DNA from: a virus
Strand: one strand, 5' to 3'
Virus record (IMG/VR): IMGVR_UViG_3300017963_002468
Span: 1-36,872 of that record
DNA: 36,872 nucleotides
Both the position numbers and the translations under genes were made by a program. Shown here in pieces: positions 7,586 through 36,872 of this stretch; positions within the stretch are counted from its first letter, which is position 1, and each line of letters begins with the position of its first letter. The notes beneath the pieces were generated by a model. That model made no database searches and was not told where the DNA came from. It saw only the letters and a program-made list of their open reading frames with translations.

Positions 7586-9271
7586 TTAGCCCAGGTAACC
7601 AGCCAGAGCACCTTCAAGGTCGTTAAGTCTTTGCCGTTCCTTCTTACTCAGGTTCTTCTTGGCCTTCAGTGTGTTATGCTCTCGAATTAAGAACTGAACT
7701 CTCGGGTCTTCTTTGGGTACTGGCTGTTCTGCCCGTTGTGGAATTTCCGCAGGTGCTGGCTGAACAGGTGGCCCTTCCGGCCCTAACCCAGGTGGAAACT
7801 GCGGTAGCATTGGTGGCGCGCCCCCCTCTTGTGGCCCCATCGCAGCAAGCGTGTCCGCCAGAGGCGTGGGTATGGGTGGCTCTACGACAGGACGCTCGAC
7901 TACTTCAGGGAGAAAGAACTCCCGCTTTGCAGCCATCATTGCCTTGGCGTAGGCTACTGATCCGGTTCGGATTCTTTCGGCATACGCATCGTTGCTCTCG
8001 CTGAGTCCTTGCGGATTATTCTTTGCGTATTGCTCTGCGTATTCGTCAAACTGTTGTGCTTCCGGCGTAGGCTCAGGGATACCGTCCTTGTCATAAACAT
8101 AAGGAACACCATTCACCGGTGGTGCTTCTGTGCCCGGCGTACCCTGGCCTTCTGCAATTTCAAGCTTATTCGCCGTCACCTTCCCCGTGCCTGGATCTTG
8201 CCAGTATTTATAGCCATCCTCAGTAAATCTCCTTACCTGCTGTTCGAGTGGTGGGATTGGCTCCGGCTTTATCTCAAAATCGGGATTCAGTAGTTCGTTA
8301 CGCATTTGGCCGTAGAGTCGGCGTATCTTCGGCTCAACTTCCGCTGGCGTGAGTTGTTTGGCACTTACAGCAGAGCGCAGGTTACGGACTTGTTCTTGCC
8401 ATTGCTTTATCCGCTGCTTCTGGGGAGTACTGAACCGCCGGACAATCATGTTGTTGGCGGCTTCGTTCAAAACGCCGTCTACCACTTGTGCCTGCTGTAC
8501 CGTCTGCTGCTTCGCGGCCTCCTCGGCAAGAGCTTGGCCAATAAGGGCTTGCCGCTGCACCTTCGTTGGCTTGGGTACACGCCCTGTAGCTGCGCCAGTC
8601 AGGGGCGCAGTGGGCATAGCCAGGCTGCTGAATTGCGGTCCCTGTGCGCCTCTCCTCGGTGGTCCCGTAGGTACAGGTGTCGGCCCCACCCCAGGTAATG
8701 AGACAGGCGGTGTAGTCTGTAATCGTTGCTGAACCTGAGCCTGCATGGGGTTCTGGATATTGATAGGTGCTTGTTGCAACTGCTCTTGTAGCTGCAACAT
8801 GTCAGGGCCCATTCCGGGCGCCAGCTTACCTTGGGCGTAGAGGTTTCGGAATCTGTTGAATTCTAGTTGTTTACCTATCTTTTCGCCGTATTGCTCTGGT
8901 GGCACACCGGCGAGGTTGACGCCGAGACGCAATGCGCTTCTTTGCATTTGGGCATCGTTATACAGCTTCGCCCGAGCAATGTCGTTCTGGCCGTAGGCCT
9001 CGATTTGGCCGAGACGATACTGATTCTGGAGTGCGCCAAGAGCTACGTTACTGCCAAGATTGCCAAGCATATTGGCTGTAGCCATTTGGCCTTGGTGACG
9101 CTGGGCCTGAGCTTGTCGAGCAGAAGCCCATTGCTGGTTGGCCAAGCCGCCCAAGCCTTGTCCGTAACCACCAAGAGTAGCAGCAAGGCCCACGGACAAA
9201 GCATCCATGTCATGGCGTATATTGATTGGTGGTGGCGGTGGCCACATAGGAACTACGCTTGCTATACTCAT
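7586..9271 (-). CDS. Internal virion protein, Q/P-rich
   Basis: 561 residues. The N-terminal third is Gln/Ala-rich and helical (QWASARQAQAQRHQGQMATA). The middle holds a Pro-rich linker (VSLPGVGPTPVPTGPP) and then a long amphipathic helix. A second Pro-rich stretch near 460-520 is followed by a basic coiled coil (HNTLKAKKNLSKKERQRLNDLE). Position between two other long internal-protein candidates and low sequence complexity match T7 gp14/gp15-type ejection proteins. I do not recognise a specific family. A run of five prolines follows residue 10. Confidence 0.6.
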   Translation of the reverse strand: MSIASVVPMWPPPPPINIRHDMDALSVGLAATLGGYGQGLGGLANQQWASARQAQAQRHQGQMATANMLGNLGSNVALGALQNQYRLGQIEAYGQNDIARAKLYNDAQMQRSALRLGVNLAGVPPEQYGEKIGKQLEFNRFRNLYAQGKLAPGMGPDMLQLQEQLQQAPINIQNPMQAQVQQRLQTTPPVSLPGVGPTPVPTGPPRRGAQGPQFSSLAMPTAPLTGAATGRVPKPTKVQRQALIGQALAEEAAKQQTVQQAQVVDGVLNEAANNMIVRRFSTPQKQRIKQWQEQVRNLRSAVSAKQLTPAEVEPKIRRLYGQMRNELLNPDFEIKPEPIPPLEQQVRRFTEDGYKYWQDPGTGKVTANKLEIAEGQGTPGTEAPPVNGVPYVYDKDGIPEPTPEAQQFDEYAEQYAKNNPQGLSESNDAYAERIRTGSVAYAKAMMAAKREFFLPEVVERPVVEPPIPTPLADTLAAMGPQEGGAPPMLPQFPPGLGPEGPPVQPAPAEIPQRAEQPVPKEDPRVQFLIREHNTLKAKKNLSKKERQRLNDLEGALAGYLG

Positions 9272-20709: not shown

Positions 20710-21789
20710 TTACGACAGGGCCGCACTACCGTTAGTTGTTCGTCCTGTGCTCAAGCACGCCTGGGCACGCCGGTCGGTACAAAGAATGTTCCACGTCAGG
20801 TCTAGGTGACAGTGGTACACATTATGCTGCGACGGACTCTCTTTTGGCGGTGACTCTCGCAGATAGTCGCCCTTCAGGAACACTGGGTAGAACTTCGACC
20901 AGTCCAAAAGGTAAATGGGTGCGTCGCTGTCGCTATCCAACGTTTCGATCCAGACAATTGGGTTACGCCGGAACGTAATTGTGCCATCCATCGCCGCCAG
21001 GTCTCGACCGAGATTTTCGTTCTGGTTCTCGGCCAGAGTTTCCATCTCAATGATCTCGTCCAACGGCGCGTAAATCCGGTATTGCTGCCCCACGCCCTTG
21101 CGGTAGTCAGGTATGTCAACCGGACTCTTGAACCGAATCTTCCGGTAAGCCGTGCGGAGCTTCGTAATCAAGTCCGACTTGGCCACGTTTGTGTATTTGC
21201 AGGTGTAATTTCGCCAATTGGTATACGTGTTCGAGTTCAAGCCACCGGGGCCAGACGAATAGCTGGCATGATTGCCACCATAAAAGCCGCCCGTAGTGCT
21301 GCCCGATGCGTACTTGACAACCCAATAAGGCAAGCCAAATGGGTTCGTCTTGTCCGTAGAACCGCCAGGTGCGGCAAAAAAATCAGCCTCCATGCGTTCG
21401 GCAAGGCCAATCATCGTGGCAATACGCCGGGTCTTGATCATATCCACGATTCGTGAGGCCCCGCGATTCATAAGAACCTCGCGAACCTCATACGCCCAGT
21501 TGGCAGTGGTATGCCGCCACGGGATATCGATTGTCTGCAAGAAGTCCTCGACGTTTACGTCATCCGTCTCGAACATCCCGACGTTTCTGGCGGACGAGGA
21601 ATAGTCCACCATGAGCGTTTTCTGGATTCCGTAACCATCGTCAAACTGAACCTTGTCTTTCTTCAGAATCCGACTCATCACCTCATAGTTCGTGAGATTT
21701 TGGGCGATTTGCGTAAACCTCAGACGCCCTAAATCTCTCAACGTACTGGTGACCAGATCGGCAATGTTACTAGCTTCAAGTGTTGGCAT
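20710..21789 (-). CDS. Major capsid protein
   Basis: 359 residues: PTLEASNIADLVTSTLRDLG...RFTQIAQNLTNYEVMSRI, a glycine-containing loop (GGFYGGNHASYSSGPGGLN), LRTAYRKIRFKSPVD, and LKGDYLRESPPKE...HCHLDLTWNILCTDRR. This order is familiar to me from capsid proteins of uncultured podovirus-like phages that also carry the terminase and portal types seen here. HK97-fold is expected but not visible in the linear sequence. It lies directly after the scaffold gene, with 41 bp between them. The protein is on the short side but complete. Confidence 0.85.
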   Translation of the reverse strand: MPTLEASNIADLVTSTLRDLGRLRFTQIAQNLTNYEVMSRILKKDKVQFDDGYGIQKTLMVDYSSSARNVGMFETDDVNVEDFLQTIDIPWRHTTANWAYEVREVLMNRGASRIVDMIKTRRIATMIGLAERMEADFFAAPGGSTDKTNPFGLPYWVVKYASGSTTGGFYGGNHASYSSGPGGLNSNTYTNWRNYTCKYTNVAKSDLITKLRTAYRKIRFKSPVDIPDYRKGVGQQYRIYAPLDEIIEMETLAENQNENLGRDLAAMDGTITFRRNPIVWIETLDSDSDAPIYLLDWSKFYPVFLKGDYLRESPPKESPSQHNVYHCHLDLTWNILCTDRRAQACLSTGRTTNGSAALS

Positions 21790-25843: not shown

Positions 25844-27712
25844 TTACCAGTAGTCCTTCGATTTCAAGCTTGCCTCATACGCTTCTCGTCTGGCCGCAAA
25901 ACAGTAGGGTGAATGCTCCGGCTCTTTTTCCGAAACAATACGACCTATCATGTGTGCCGCTCGCCAGGCCAAAGCGTCAGCCGTTACACGGTCGGCATGA
26001 TTTTCTCTTGCCCCTGATGAGTCCATAGTATTTACTGAGTGCGTATGTACCACTTTGCCGTCCGTACCGAATACGATAAGTTCGCATTCCTCGATAGCCG
26101 GCTTTGAGCGATTCATGAACGCGCCGGTAGAAAGAGCCAGGCCGTATTGGCCGAACAACGTCTGCTTGGCCGGCGGAGTTGCCCACCAGCCGGGCACATC
26201 TGTCGATTTTTTTGACAGGGAATCTTCCTTCTCCCGAAAGTAGATATTCCTGAAGCCAACTTGGACAACACGGGCGCCAAACTGGTTACCAGGCCCGTTC
26301 GCCTCCCAAATCAGATAAGCCCCGTCACCTCCTGTACCCTTGAACCAACGACAGATAGATACGCAGTAATCTGCGAACTCTTCGGGTCGTAGCCTTGAAT
26401 GAACAAATTCACCCACCTTCCCACCCGTCTTCTTGTCGAGGATAGATAAGACAGAGTTGGAAGCCCCTGTGCCCGCCGAGATATCGGCACCAGCTACATA
26501 ATCCCGATCAGCCGGCACTTTGCCGGCTACGTCCACGTTTATCCATAGCTTGAAATGACCTCTGGGCTCGTCAACAAAATCGACAGGCTCGAACTTTTCC
26601 GAGTCGTAATGTAGTTCGCCAACACGATACGGCGGCCTGCAATACTCTTCTTTGTGGCTTCTGAGCACTTCGGCAGAAAAAAACCGGGAACCAGAACCCA
26701 GAAAGTCAATATCCAATTCTTGGGCAATGAGAGTATCAAGACGGGTCCGACGGCATTGAAGGTCGTACCAAGGCGAACGAATCTTGCCGTCCAAAACGAA
26801 CTTGTAATGTGGCTCGACGGTCCTCTCCAGGCCTGCCAAGCCATCTGGACTGTATTCAAGACCACGATCGAGAGCGTACTTCCTCCAGTACTCACGATCC
26901 AGAAGCTTGAGTTTTCCGTTAGGTTGAGTCCCGTATATACCACGTCGGCGATCAGGGATATCCGACCAATGGATACGGGTGCATTTCATGTCCAAATCGC
27001 GGGAATCGGCGTAAGCGTTACCTACACCTTGTGGTGTTGAGTTGAGAATTCGGCATGGCGTAGCTGCAATAGTGGCTGCCTCAGCTCGGTAGCCATCATT
27101 CACCTCAAACGCCGCGTATTCATCCAATAGTATCGCATTACGCCGATCGCCACGCGCTACATCGCCAGTAGTCGATTCCCCGTCAATCACTGAGCCGTTG
27201 TCCAGATTCTGCAAATGGAGCTTGATCCTGTGCTGGCTAGGCTTGAGCCAGCCAGGTAGGTGATCGGCCAGGAAATCAAGCTTCCAGAACAGACACTTCG
27301 GATTGCCCGACTTGTCAACGTAATCCTCGTTCCGCGAAATCATGAGCAGCGATTCAGCCTCGTAGAAGCGCCAACGGTGATCGAAAACGGTAAGGCACAT
27401 CCATGAAGCACCCGTATCCCTGGACTTCTCGATACGGATATCCTCGTTCCCAATTGCGTTGTTGATTTCCAGAATGATTTCGTCTTGCTTTGGGTAGGTA
27501 ATGAATGGCAGCTTCTTGAGACCATTACCTCCACGCGGGTCGTAAGTCCAGACGAACGTATTGATATAGAACAGAATGTCCCGCGCACACATTATCCAAA
27601 GCTCTTCGGCTCTCTTACGGCTCTCGTAGCCTAGACGCAGTATCTCCTTGCGAAACAGCAGGTTCGTATAGAAATCCTTTGGGACCATTTCGTAATAGGG
27701 CGTCTGAGTCAT
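25844..27712 (-). CDS. terL: Terminase large subunit
   Basis: 622 residues. ATPase: an atypical Walker A KSRDTGASW at 96-104, Walker B ILLDE at 194-198 and coupling motif NSTPQG near 224. Nuclease: VAGADISAG (Asp 410), LIWEANGPG (Glu 470) and NHADRVTADALAW (Asp near 575) supply the acidic residues of the RNase H-like fold. Length and motif order are normal, so it should be active in cutting and pumping DNA into the head. Its ATG overlaps the stop of an 18-codon ORF. The gene is the clearest marker that this is a tailed phage. Confidence 0.9.
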   Translation of the reverse strand: MTQTPYYEMVPKDFYTNLLFRKEILRLGYESRKRAEELWIMCARDILFYINTFVWTYDPRGGNGLKKLPFITYPKQDEIILEINNAIGNEDIRIEKSRDTGASWMCLTVFDHRWRFYEAESLLMISRNEDYVDKSGNPKCLFWKLDFLADHLPGWLKPSQHRIKLHLQNLDNGSVIDGESTTGDVARGDRRNAILLDEYAAFEVNDGYRAEAATIAATPCRILNSTPQGVGNAYADSRDLDMKCTRIHWSDIPDRRRGIYGTQPNGKLKLLDREYWRKYALDRGLEYSPDGLAGLERTVEPHYKFVLDGKIRSPWYDLQCRRTRLDTLIAQELDIDFLGSGSRFFSAEVLRSHKEEYCRPPYRVGELHYDSEKFEPVDFVDEPRGHFKLWINVDVAGKVPADRDYVAGADISAGTGASNSVLSILDKKTGGKVGEFVHSRLRPEEFADYCVSICRWFKGTGGDGAYLIWEANGPGNQFGARVVQVGFRNIYFREKEDSLSKKSTDVPGWWATPPAKQTLFGQYGLALSTGAFMNRSKPAIEECELIVFGTDGKVVHTHSVNTMDSSGARENHADRVTADALAWRAAHMIGRIVSEKEPEHSPYCFAARREAYEASLKSKDYW

Positions 27713-33305: not shown

Positions 33306-33589
33306 TGAGGATCTATAACCCTCCATACGCTGCGGGCGAACTTGTCAGCAAAGCGCCGGAGATTTTGTGCGTAGGAAGCGACGACGATCACGACGGCGGT
33401 TTACTCGGCGTAGCGATAGGCACAGGGGAGGTGTGGCACCTCGCACCTAGGCGGCGAGACGATCTCTGGTGTATACCAATGCTGACGGTGGCTAATAGGC
33501 CGAGTGACGATGATCCCAATCCCCGCAAATGGCAAGCATGGGCTCGCCGTTGTCGTAAGGCGATTTGCCGAAAGCAAGCCCCCCAATGA
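33305..33589 (+). CDS. Hypothetical protein, 94 aa
   Basis: From ATG 33305 (GTG 33302 is in frame but lies on the overlap). MRIYNPPYAAGELVSKAPEILCVGSDDDHDGGLLGVAIGTGEVWHLA..., beta-rich N-terminus and a basic helical end (KWQAWARRCRKAICRKQ). Its TGA overlaps the recombinase ATG (ATGA), so the two are probably co-translated; it might assist or control the recombinase. Not recognised. Confidence 0.6.
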   Translation: MRIYNPPYAAGELVSKAPEILCVGSDDDHDGGLLGVAIGTGEVWHLAPRRRDDLWCIPMLTVANRPSDDDPNPRKWQAWARRCRKAICRKQAPQ

Positions 33590-34320
33590 GTAACAAAGCC
33601 ATCCTATACGCCCGTTATTCGCCACGTCCGTTGGAGAAAACCCAAGCCGAGACTCTCGATATCCAGCTTGAGCGAATGCGGGCCTATGTCCGGTTCGCAG
33701 AACTCGATCCGGAGCCTGTAGAACTACGCGACGAGCGAACCTCCGGCGGCAAAAGTCTACAGAGCCGAACGGTTGGCAAGCTGCTGCTCGACCACTTGGC
33801 CACCGGTGTTTATGGCCATGTTGTAGTATGTAAGCTCGACCGGCTATTCCGCTCAGTCGTCGATTGCCGCCAGACAGTAGACGCCTGGGACAAACAGGGC
33901 ATCGCCCTACATATCCTGGACTTGGGCGGCTCGACGCTCAATAGCCAGACGGCAATGGGCCGCATGTTTTTGGGGATCACGGCAGTATTTGCCGAGTTTG
34001 AACGCGATCAGACCGCTAGCCGAACTAGGGAGGCGATCCGGCACTACCAGGCCAACGGCCGGAGAATGAGCGATCGAATCCCTTACGGTTGGCGAGAAGA
34101 TCCAGACTCGGTCCCGAATAAGCGAGGCCGACCAACTGGCATAATCGAACACCCGCACGAGCAGAAGATAATCGAGCGAATCCGGGCCGAACGCGACAAA
34201 GGCCGGGGCCTCCGTGAGATCGCACGCCTCCTAATGGGTGAGGGAATCACCTGTCGCGGCGAACAGTGGTACCATCAGACCATTCGCACTATCCTAGCCC
34301 GCAAAAACGGCCTAGAATGA
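33586..34320 (+). CDS. Serine recombinase (resolvase/invertase family)
   Basis: 244 residues from ATG 33586. N-terminal catalytic domain: ILYARYSPR with nucleophile Ser 12 and Arg 10, DERTSGGKSL near 49-58, and KLDRLFRS (Asp 85, Arg 86, Arg 89), all as in active resolvases. A connecting helix follows (TAVFAEFERDQTASRTREA). The C-terminal part (PYGWREDPD; ITCRGEQWYHQTIRTILAR) resembles the start of the Recombinase domain, but the chain is far shorter than 450-600-residue large serine integrases and lacks a zinc ribbon. Roles could be dimer resolution, inversion or a second integration system. Confidence 0.8.
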   Translation: MSNKAILYARYSPRPLEKTQAETLDIQLERMRAYVRFAELDPEPVELRDERTSGGKSLQSRTVGKLLLDHLATGVYGHVVVCKLDRLFRSVVDCRQTVDAWDKQGIALHILDLGGSTLNSQTAMGRMFLGITAVFAEFERDQTASRTREAIRHYQANGRRMSDRIPYGWREDPDSVPNKRGRPTGIIEHPHEQKIIERIRAERDKGRGLREIARLLMGEGITCRGEQWYHQTIRTILARKNGLE

Positions 34321-34613
34321 ATCTACCCCACCCTAGACACCTCCCAGCCCGAGATCGTCCAGCAGAGCCCACGTATGACGTTTCTGAGAACACGTACCCC
34401 TACCACTCCCCCCGACAAGCGGGGGATCAAATAGCCGGAATCTGCATTTCTGTCGTAGAATCACAGATTGTACATAGGCTGTTAACCGCTAGGTTGTAGG
34501 TTCGAGTCCTACTCGGGGAGTAGAATTGACAAGGATTTACGGTGGTTTTAGAGGTACATCGCTCCCCCTGAGATTGACGGAGTCCCCCCCGAGGAGGTAG
34601 ATTTCGCCCCGTT
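34321..34613. other. Recombination region upstream of the integrase
   Basis: No gene. Contains a hairpin CCCCCG-ACAAG-CGGGGG (34409-34425), the tRNA-Asn 3' half (34471-34520), a weak promoter (TTGACA at 34526, 17 bp, TAGAGG at 34549), and GAGGAGG 17 bases before the integrase ATG. Confidence 0.6.
34471..34520 (+). other. attP-like tRNA-Asn 3' half
   Basis: GGCTGTTAACCGCTAGGTTG holds a GTT anticodon at 34481-34483 in a normal loop. A perfect T arm follows: GTAGG, TTCGAGT, CCTAC (34496-34512), then TCGGGGA and G as acceptor 3' strand and discriminator. The D arm and 5' half are absent, so it cannot be a working tRNA. Phages that integrate into tRNA genes carry just this 3' identity segment next to their integrase. 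Confidence 0.75.
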
Positions 34614-35600
34614 ATGCCCCGCCCAGCTCCTACATTCCGGAAGCATCACACCGGCGTCTACTTCTGCCGTTGGGGCGGGAAGGACCATATCTTCTCGAAG
34701 GACAAGGACGCGAGCTACAAGCAATATCTGGACTCCCTCCGAGACTGGGCGGAATGGCAAGCGGAGCGCAAGGCTGTCTTGGCCCGTCCGTTCCGGAAGC
34801 TCACGGTCAAGGAACTCAGTGACCAGTTCCTGCAGAGCCGGTTCGCCGAGGGCGGCCGGGACCGCCAGGACTTCTACGCCAAGCACCTTAGGCGATTCCT
34901 GTCCAGCCATGCCGGAGACAGGGCGGAAACAATCCGCGCAGTCCACCTCCAACACTTGAAGGATTACATGCTCGGTCAGGAGAAATTCAGAGCAGCTCGC
35001 ACTATCAATCACGACCTCCAAGCAGTCAAAACAATGCTCCAGTGGGCTATGGACCTGGAGTACATTCCGCCTGTCAACCTGCACGGCGTCAAGAAACTCC
35101 CACTCGGGGAGATCCCCGACAAGTCCTGGCCCATTGGCAAAGTCCGCAAGTACATCCTGGGCTGCAAAGACGAAAACATGCGGGCCTGGTTGGCAATCCA
35201 TTTCCTCTGCGCCATGCGACCCAAAGAGGTCGTCCGGGTCATGGCTGGCCAAGGTGAGTGGGTCCAACGGGGTGTCCTCAAGATTCCGAACAAGGCTGGG
35301 CAGAAAGTACGGCTCGCTCGGCACGTGCTTTTCTCACCCGAAGCCTTCTCTTGGTGGCGGCTTGGTAAGCCGCGCTGGTCGCGGCTTGACTCTTTTTCCG
35401 CTGCTGTGAAACGCGAGCAATCAGAGACCTCGCATCCGCTTCGACACTCTGCGGGGACAATCCTGATTGAATCAGGAGTTCATCGAGAAGACGCCGACTC
35501 AATTCTTGGTCACTACCCCCGGGCGGTTTCGTTAGTATACATGCGTATGCAATGGCGGCGTCTGAGGAGTTTAGCGGCCCGATTAACTCTAAAAGGCTGA
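34614..35600 (+). CDS. int: Tyrosine integrase
   Basis: 328 residues. N-terminal arm-binding-like part (HHTGVYFCRWGGKDHIFSKD), core-binding helical domain (about 60-150), then the catalytic domain. Arg 202 (CAMRPKEV), Lys 227 or 231 (NKAGQK), His 274 and Arg 277 (HPLRH), His 300 (LGHY) and Tyr 309 (VYMR) make a full R-K-H-R-H-Y set. It lies 94 bp after the attP-like tRNA fragment, so it very likely integrates the phage into a host tRNA-Asn gene. GAGGAGG is 17 bases from the ATG, farther than usual. Confidence 0.9.
   Translation: MPRPAPTFRKHHTGVYFCRWGGKDHIFSKDKDASYKQYLDSLRDWAEWQAERKAVLARPFRKLTVKELSDQFLQSRFAEGGRDRQDFYAKHLRRFLSSHAGDRAETIRAVHLQHLKDYMLGQEKFRAARTINHDLQAVKTMLQWAMDLEYIPPVNLHGVKKLPLGEIPDKSWPIGKVRKYILGCKDENMRAWLAIHFLCAMRPKEVVRVMAGQGEWVQRGVLKIPNKAGQKVRLARHVLFSPEAFSWWRLGKPRWSRLDSFSAAVKREQSETSHPLRHSAGTILIESGVHREDADSILGHYPRAVSLVYMRMQWRRLRSLAARLTLKG

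Positions 35601-36150: not shown

Positions 36151-36872
<722 letters not shown>

Follow-up and report, generated by a model that had tools for sequence, protein, structure and literature searches.

A tRNA-Asn 3' half beside a divergent tyrosine integrase as the very probable attP core of a temperate tailed phage

The 3' half of a tRNA-Asn(GTT) gene very probably forms the attP core of a temperate tailed phage; the integrase that acts at the host tRNA-Asn(GTT) gene is very probably encoded by the gene starting at 34614. The phage is represented by the window, that is, the whole 36,872-nt stretch of viral DNA that was analysed (IMG/VR record IMGVR_UViG_3300017963_002468). In the proposed mechanism, the integrase would recombine attP with the host gene, with the crossover placed in the 7-bp loop (CTGTTAA) that the two anticodon-stem strands enclose. 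At attL, the host 5' half and the phage 3' half would make a complete tRNA-Asn, with the integrase gene next to it; at attR, phage DNA past the serine recombinase gene would run into the displaced host 3' half with its terminator, and then into the chromosome. In its basics, this mechanism is textbook knowledge, and tRNA-gene integration with restoration has long been known (passages in PMC4383910). Insertion into a host gene without destroying tRNA-Asn is thus a known trick, encountered here in a little-explored integrase branch. By comparison with other sequences, four elements of the case could be demonstrated: the half-tRNA, its match to host tRNA-Asn genes, the same module in two viral contigs, and both attL and attR in relatives. 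Feature coordinates are collected in Table 1.

Table 1. Features of the window and of the related G523 element (window positions unless a contig is named)
Feature	Position	Strand	Basis or content
Major head protein, host marker	20710..21789	-	phrog_9953
Terminase large subunit, host marker	25844..27712	-	relatives in 9 of 397 Phycisphaerae genomes
Serine recombinase, 251 aa, last gene before attP	33565..34320	+	PF00239, part of PF07508
Candidate P-arm site CCCCCCGA	34408..34415	+	71 nt before core; putative
Very probable attP core, 3' part of tRNA-Asn(GTT)	34477..34520	+	44 nt identity to bacterial tRNA-Asn
Candidate P'-arm pair CTCCCCCT (34562-34569) and CCCCCCGA (34585-34592)	34562..34592	+	putative
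Tyrosine integrase, complete, 328 aa	34614..35600	+	PF00589, phrog_1, alignment, XerD and lambda-Int-like matches
G523 element	L132:1376-5613 (G523:C46)		integrase, Rep_trans protein, ribbon-helix-helix protein

The core spans a bacterial tRNA-Asn(GTT) from the anticodon arm to the discriminator base. After the letters CATAGG come the GTT anticodon loop (CTGTTAA), the 3' strand of the anticodon stem (CCGCT), the variable loop (AGGTT), a perfect 5-bp T stem (GTAGG and CCTAC, around TTCGAGT), the acceptor 3' strand (TCGGGGA), and the discriminator G, followed by TAGAATT. The acceptor 5' strand and the D arm are absent from the half-tRNA in the window, and ARAGORN called no tRNA in the window. 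A preliminary description had recognised this 3' half, with its GTT loop, perfect T arm, and acceptor 3' strand but no 5' half, and the letters bear it out; its statement that one copy is present in the window also holds, and 100 dinucleotide-preserving shuffles of the window gave no copy with up to three mismatches allowed. Its 50-bp fragment starting at 34471 has to be shortened: identity with host genes starts at 34477 (GG) and runs for 44 nt. The complete tyrosine integrase that it had placed 94 bp downstream is in place, with a start codon 94 nt past the last tRNA base. The identity of the core as attP is confirmed by sequence comparison.

When bacterial tRNA-Asn genes with the same 3' end were sought, as the preliminary description had proposed, a 40-nt piece of the core was found exactly in 84 bacterial stretches (GTDB-based genome_contigs) and in two viral contigs. 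In 82 of these stretches of bacterial DNA, ARAGORN called a complete tRNA-Asn; the two exceptions are L028, which ends at the stretch edge, and L037, which is a half itself. In silico hybrids of the host 5' half, the window 3' half, and the window downstream DNA gave a predicted tRNA-Asn at 82 of 83 loci, the sole failure being L037, without a 5' half. The tRNA matches and the hybrid joins together indicate that this part of attP would restore the tRNA, a mark of tRNA-targeting integrative elements. In the host tRNA-Asn, the perfect inverted repeat AGCGG-CTGTTAA-CCGCT encloses 7 bp. Near the tRNA-Asn of several Phycisphaerae there is also a degenerate second tRNA-Asn-like copy (L007 (-) 3532, L013 (+) 746, L020 (-) 3938, L031 (+) 427-470, L059 (+) 7584), in which a hairpin (such as TCCCGATGTCCATCGGGA) and then TTAACC replace the anticodon loop.

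The same module is present in other, diverged phages. Viral contig L003 shares 42 nt with the core from 34479 (the first anticodon-loop base), also without a 5' half, and its integrase starts 80 nt after; this integrase is 44% identical to that of the window over 327 alignment columns (E 9e-82). Viral contig L090 carries a related half-tRNA followed by an integrase 28% identical to the window's (E 7e-37). In all three phages, the core precedes the integrase in one orientation. A profile scan of viral_contigs returned only L003, L090, and a weak L089 (21%, 2e-6). The tRNA-half pattern was found in 10 contigs of that collection: a half without its 5' part in four (L003, L090, L091, L092), a case at the stretch edge in L097, and a complete tRNA-Asn in the other five. 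At L091:1483 and L092:194, the half tRNA-Asn goes with a different integrase, placed before the core. A terminator-like hairpin lies in the phage P' arm directly after the tRNA half in L090 and in G511 (L284), a prophage described below; a rebuilt tRNA would therefore gain a new terminator.

The window integrase matches PF00589 at 28.4 bits (cut-off 27.1) and phrog_1 at 3.6e-16. Its candidate catalytic residues R202, K227, H274, R277, H300, and Y309 are invariant in the window, L003, and L090 integrases, and the R, HxxR, H, and Y align with the catalytic residues of XerD. The R-K-H-R-H-Y set identifies it as a tyrosine recombinase (phage integrase), and recombination activity is predicted. The structure model is of low confidence (mean pLDDT 56.9; residues 165-328 under 50), and because it is too weak in the catalytic half, fold matches were used for the N-terminal part only. 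This part consists of three strands and a helix, like solved N-terminal integrase domains (3nrw, TM 0.81 by target length); the best PDB fold match of the model is lambda Int (E 5.9e-4). The integrases of lambda and Tn1549 share with it the family catalytic residues, the N-terminal three-stranded sheet plus helix, and the core-binding domain, but sequence similarity is weak and the fold model poor. The lambda integration site is not a tRNA gene. The window integrase and its relatives stand far from named integrases: the window protein gave no match in 50,697 phage records (tblastn at 1e-5). Searched alone, it also gave no relative in viral_contigs and nothing at 1e-20 in 392 genomes of the phylum. 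A profile of the three integrases (window, L003, L090) gave relatives where these single-protein searches failed.

This profile was searched in 397 genomes of the Phycisphaerae, the class to which G007 belongs (G007, titled Phycisphaerales bacterium, is the genome that contains L055). The strongest relatives are those of G523 (4e-127) and G460 (3e-126); the G518 integrase is split over two contigs (1.8e-50 and 1.4e-29). Each of the three lies directly after a complete tRNA-Asn. G523 has both element ends, with 4,165 bp between the copies of a perfect 48-bp direct repeat. Copy 1 completes the tRNA-Asn and is followed by the integrase; copy 2 is a 3' half without a 5' half, followed by a terminator-like hairpin. 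An ARAGORN tRNA-Asn call on this leftover half was rejected as false, tRNA fragments called as tRNAs being a known type of false call (passages in PMC9897764). The G523 element is small and of rolling-circle type, with a Rep_trans replication protein (PF02486, 4.1e-18), and its site is tRNA-Asn, as in the window phage.

Genomes G555 and G612 have upstream DNA 83% similar to that of G523 and a terminator-like hairpin directly after tRNA-Asn; none of 67 family integrases matched the short stretches of the two. Comparison of the G523 flanks with both genomes matched the upstream DNA and no downstream DNA, so the empty-site join rests on the position of the tRNA and terminator. Beyond the G460 integrase, no leftover half was found within 21 kb. 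In a Planctomycetota MAG, L037 carries a half and then a flank that is found after the complete tRNA-Asn in L031 of the same MAG (right flanks 93% over 636 bp; left flanks unrelated); by this comparison, L037 is a second leftover junction, from another element. Within the family of G523, a place matching the 3' half only was present in 10 of 51 genomes, including G523 itself and G734, which has a degenerate copy of another kind. More widely, a complete tRNA and a directly oriented fragment at the element ends were seen in G523, G421, G594, G753, G560, G464, and G511 (two contigs). The hybrid attL/attR sites that the preliminary description had called for therefore exist in relatives (both ends in G523), whereas none was found for the window phage itself, which was not found integrated. 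Its prediction of integration into tRNA-Asn(GTT) with restoration gains support from G523, G460, G518, and 82 of the 83 hybrids.

The crossover point can be narrowed by comparing complete tRNAs with their halves. Identity starts at the first anticodon-loop base in G594, G753, G560, G464, G421, and G511, 3 nt earlier in G523, and 2 nt earlier in the window. Because the shared sequence starts there, we infer a crossover in the anticodon loop, with CTGTTAA at 34479-34485 as the likely 7-bp overlap. In G560 and G464, the only difference between the halves is a swapped T-A pair at the T-stem end; in G511, a T-stem pair changes from G-C to A-T. Paired changes of this kind locate the crossover upstream of the T arm and suggest that each half functions as tRNA. 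Tyrosine integrases that target tRNA genes and cross over in the anticodon loop were reportedly described by Williams in 2002. Anticodon loop and stem have been presented in reviews as a natural 7-bp overlap with core sites (passages in PMC8371274). Islander class A sites, as described in passages of PMC4383910, have the same features: the tRNA 3' part in attP, the gene restored, the host fragment displaced, and shared sequence from the anticodon loop. Nothing in the mechanism differs; the difference is that the integrases studied here are far from named ones. Klebsiella islands at asparagine tRNA genes (PMC4891358, PMC13023037) likewise make tRNA-Asn a hot spot, in different hosts.

The host of the window phage is probably a Phycisphaerae bacterium, because integrase and virion genes point there; we stop at probable because metagenome bins may include stray contigs. 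To our knowledge, few Phycisphaerae phages are known. Terminase relatives in G511, G653, G472, and G748 show 42-45% identity across almost the full protein, and head-protein relatives occur in seven of the nine terminase-bearing Phycisphaerae contigs; in the phage collection, the terminase reached at best 33.5% over half, among the matches listed. G511 holds a prophage with a 45% identical terminase, integrated in the chromosome at tRNA-Pro. On its contig, the terminase is followed by plus-strand genes, a serine recombinase, and a tRNA-Pro half at 8607-8648; beyond this half lie 64 kb of ordinary bacterial genes (among them LpxD, LpxI, ABC transporter, nucleotide-sugar dehydratase). The complete tRNA-Pro and a wider-family integrase (6.6e-12) are on contig C7 of G511, and a 14-nt word present in both arms (0 of 200 shuffles) ties the two ends together. 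Gene order in the window is the same: terminase, plus-strand genes, serine recombinase, and core, followed by its own integrase. A Phycisphaerae host would tie a viral contig to a likely host class, integration site, and prophage architecture.

The same mechanism in a host from the Chloroflexota or another planctomycete class is unlikely, though less so than the other alternatives. The half-tRNA, once expected to lead directly to the host, does not name it by itself, because Planctomycetota and Chloroflexota both match. Among the matches listed to the 40-mer, 80 rows are titled: 18 Chloroflexota, 1 Alphaproteobacteria, and the rest Planctomycetota, some of these last being Pirellulales or Planctomycetaceae. 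The Alphaproteobacteria title (L050) is probably a misnomer, as judged from letters around the tRNA identical to those of G426 C32 (L272); G426 belongs to the family of G523. Against such a host, relatives of both integrase and terminase are found in Phycisphaerae, and the integrase was found at 1e-12 in none of 301 Chloroflexota genomes (best candidates scored, up to 7 per genome), the terminase and head protein having been searched, among these bacteria, in Phycisphaerae.

Neither junction is present in the window, whose P-core-P' arrangement is therefore that expected of unintegrated DNA. The junction between two elements in tandem at one tRNA-Asn would read identically, DNA alone cannot separate the two forms, and tandem arrays at one tRNA are documented (Islander; passages in PMC4383910). 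We regard this arrangement as improbable: the 1.3 kb beyond the integrase contain no recognised second phage gene set. In either form, 34477-34520 would be a functional core.

It is very improbable that the serine recombinase integrates the phage, with the half-tRNA and tyrosine integrase as an acquired cassette. Its gene does end 158 nt before the core, and homologues of 224 and 230 aa are found in the terminase-related Phycisphaerae contigs (G511, G653), the one in G511 being the final large gene recognised ahead of the prophage end. But tRNA-Asn is paired with a tyrosine integrase in L003, L090, G523, G460, and G518, with no close serine recombinase partner seen beside their cores, though a 30%-identical serine recombinase lies 3 kb outside the G523 element and another is elsewhere on the G518 contig. 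The G511 prophage, which has the serine gene, still terminates in a tRNA half, and its opposite end carries a tyrosine integrase. Large serine integrases are recognised by their length, for which 224-251 aa is too short. As a candidate large serine integrase, the window protein was rejected: it has 251 aa, without the long C-terminal region, and covers only positions 1-51 of 102 of PF07508. Nor is it a truncated one, because its homologues have 224 and 230 aa. According to passages in PMC4383910, no integrases other than those of the tyrosine type are known to act at tRNA genes, which also counts against the serine recombinase. Weakest of all, to the point of being hardly credible, is the idea that the half-tRNA is a chance or vestigial piece unrelated to the adjacent integrase: tRNA fragments are common debris (passages in PMC9897764), but the same module accompanies diverged integrases in L003 and L090, the pairing potential of the half is intact, and 82 of 83 hybrids fold.

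With the half-tRNA taken as the attP core, the flanking DNA offers candidate arm sites. C-rich repeats (CACCCCCG-like) flank the core on both sides, and the window integrase may bind arms in a lambda-like manner. With at most one mismatch, CACCCCCG gave 12 sites in six of six elements; the best of 20 shuffles gave 8 sites in five. Exact 8-mers in the same six elements did no better than shuffles. For a word shared by P and P', the number of shuffles as good, out of 200, was 0 for L090, 5 for G523, 51 for the window, and 57 for L003; the arm motifs in the window alone are thus not significant.

The integrase belongs to a wider family in Phycisphaerae. At 1e-12, the profile gave at least 73 matches in 59 of the 397 genomes (best candidates scored, up to 5 per genome), and 71 were examined; those left out are G518:C28, an N-terminal piece next to tRNA-Asn, and G639:C310. 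A complete same-strand tRNA gene ends 106-271 bp before the match in 56 of the 71, with a spacing of 122-165 bp in 52 of these (median 135); three others have an opposite-strand tRNA and 12 have none. Leaving aside five matches with <260 bp of upstream DNA, the same-strand tRNA is present in 54 of 66. Ten isotypes are used (Gly, Asn, Pro, Ile, Val, Ala, Arg, Asp, Thr, Phe). As a control, 12 of the 21 PF00589 matches in G001 were inspected; none has this arrangement, though in three the locus contains a tRNA at another place, near the 3' side of the match.

A tree of 67 integrases places the window with G523, G460, and L003 (100/98) and then with L090 (100/99), all at tRNA-Asn. Over all isotype labels, the tree requires 30 changes, whereas shuffled labels require 42 and none of 200 shuffles came as low; considered one by one, Pro, Ile, Val, and Ala are not clustered, and Asn needs three changes. 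The target therefore appears to be kept among near relatives and to switch over longer spans. Among 18 elements searched for leftover halves, 6 yielded one: two in the search of all 18 to about 20 kb and four more when seven of these were followed to 60 kb. G445 is doubtful and not counted; L194 and L211 (cut before the tRNA) and L195 (too short) are outside the 18. No leftover half was found out to 60 kb for G438 and the second G464 element.

We rate as evenly poised a broader proposal drawn from these comparisons: a large Phycisphaerae integrase family may be specialised on tRNA anticodon loops, may have hopped among at least ten isotypes at near-fixed spacing, and may be common to tailed phages and small plasmid-like elements of rolling-circle type. 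The window's clade would be its tRNA-Asn branch, and the phage halves, with covarying T stems, would be selected as working tRNA parts. A literature search, largely of papers outside subscription, found no paper on integrases of Phycisphaerae elements. If the proposal is true, the family is a natural series for learning how integrases change their tRNA target; with its many tRNA targets and constant geometry, it provides a data set for target switching, and its members could supply landing-site tools for bacteria that have none.

At the right end of the window, 36151-36852 (-) is a GGC-rich repeat, whose minus-strand frame reads as an Ala/Asp/Trp-rich repeat protein and whose plus-strand frame reads as Gly/Pro/Val repeats.
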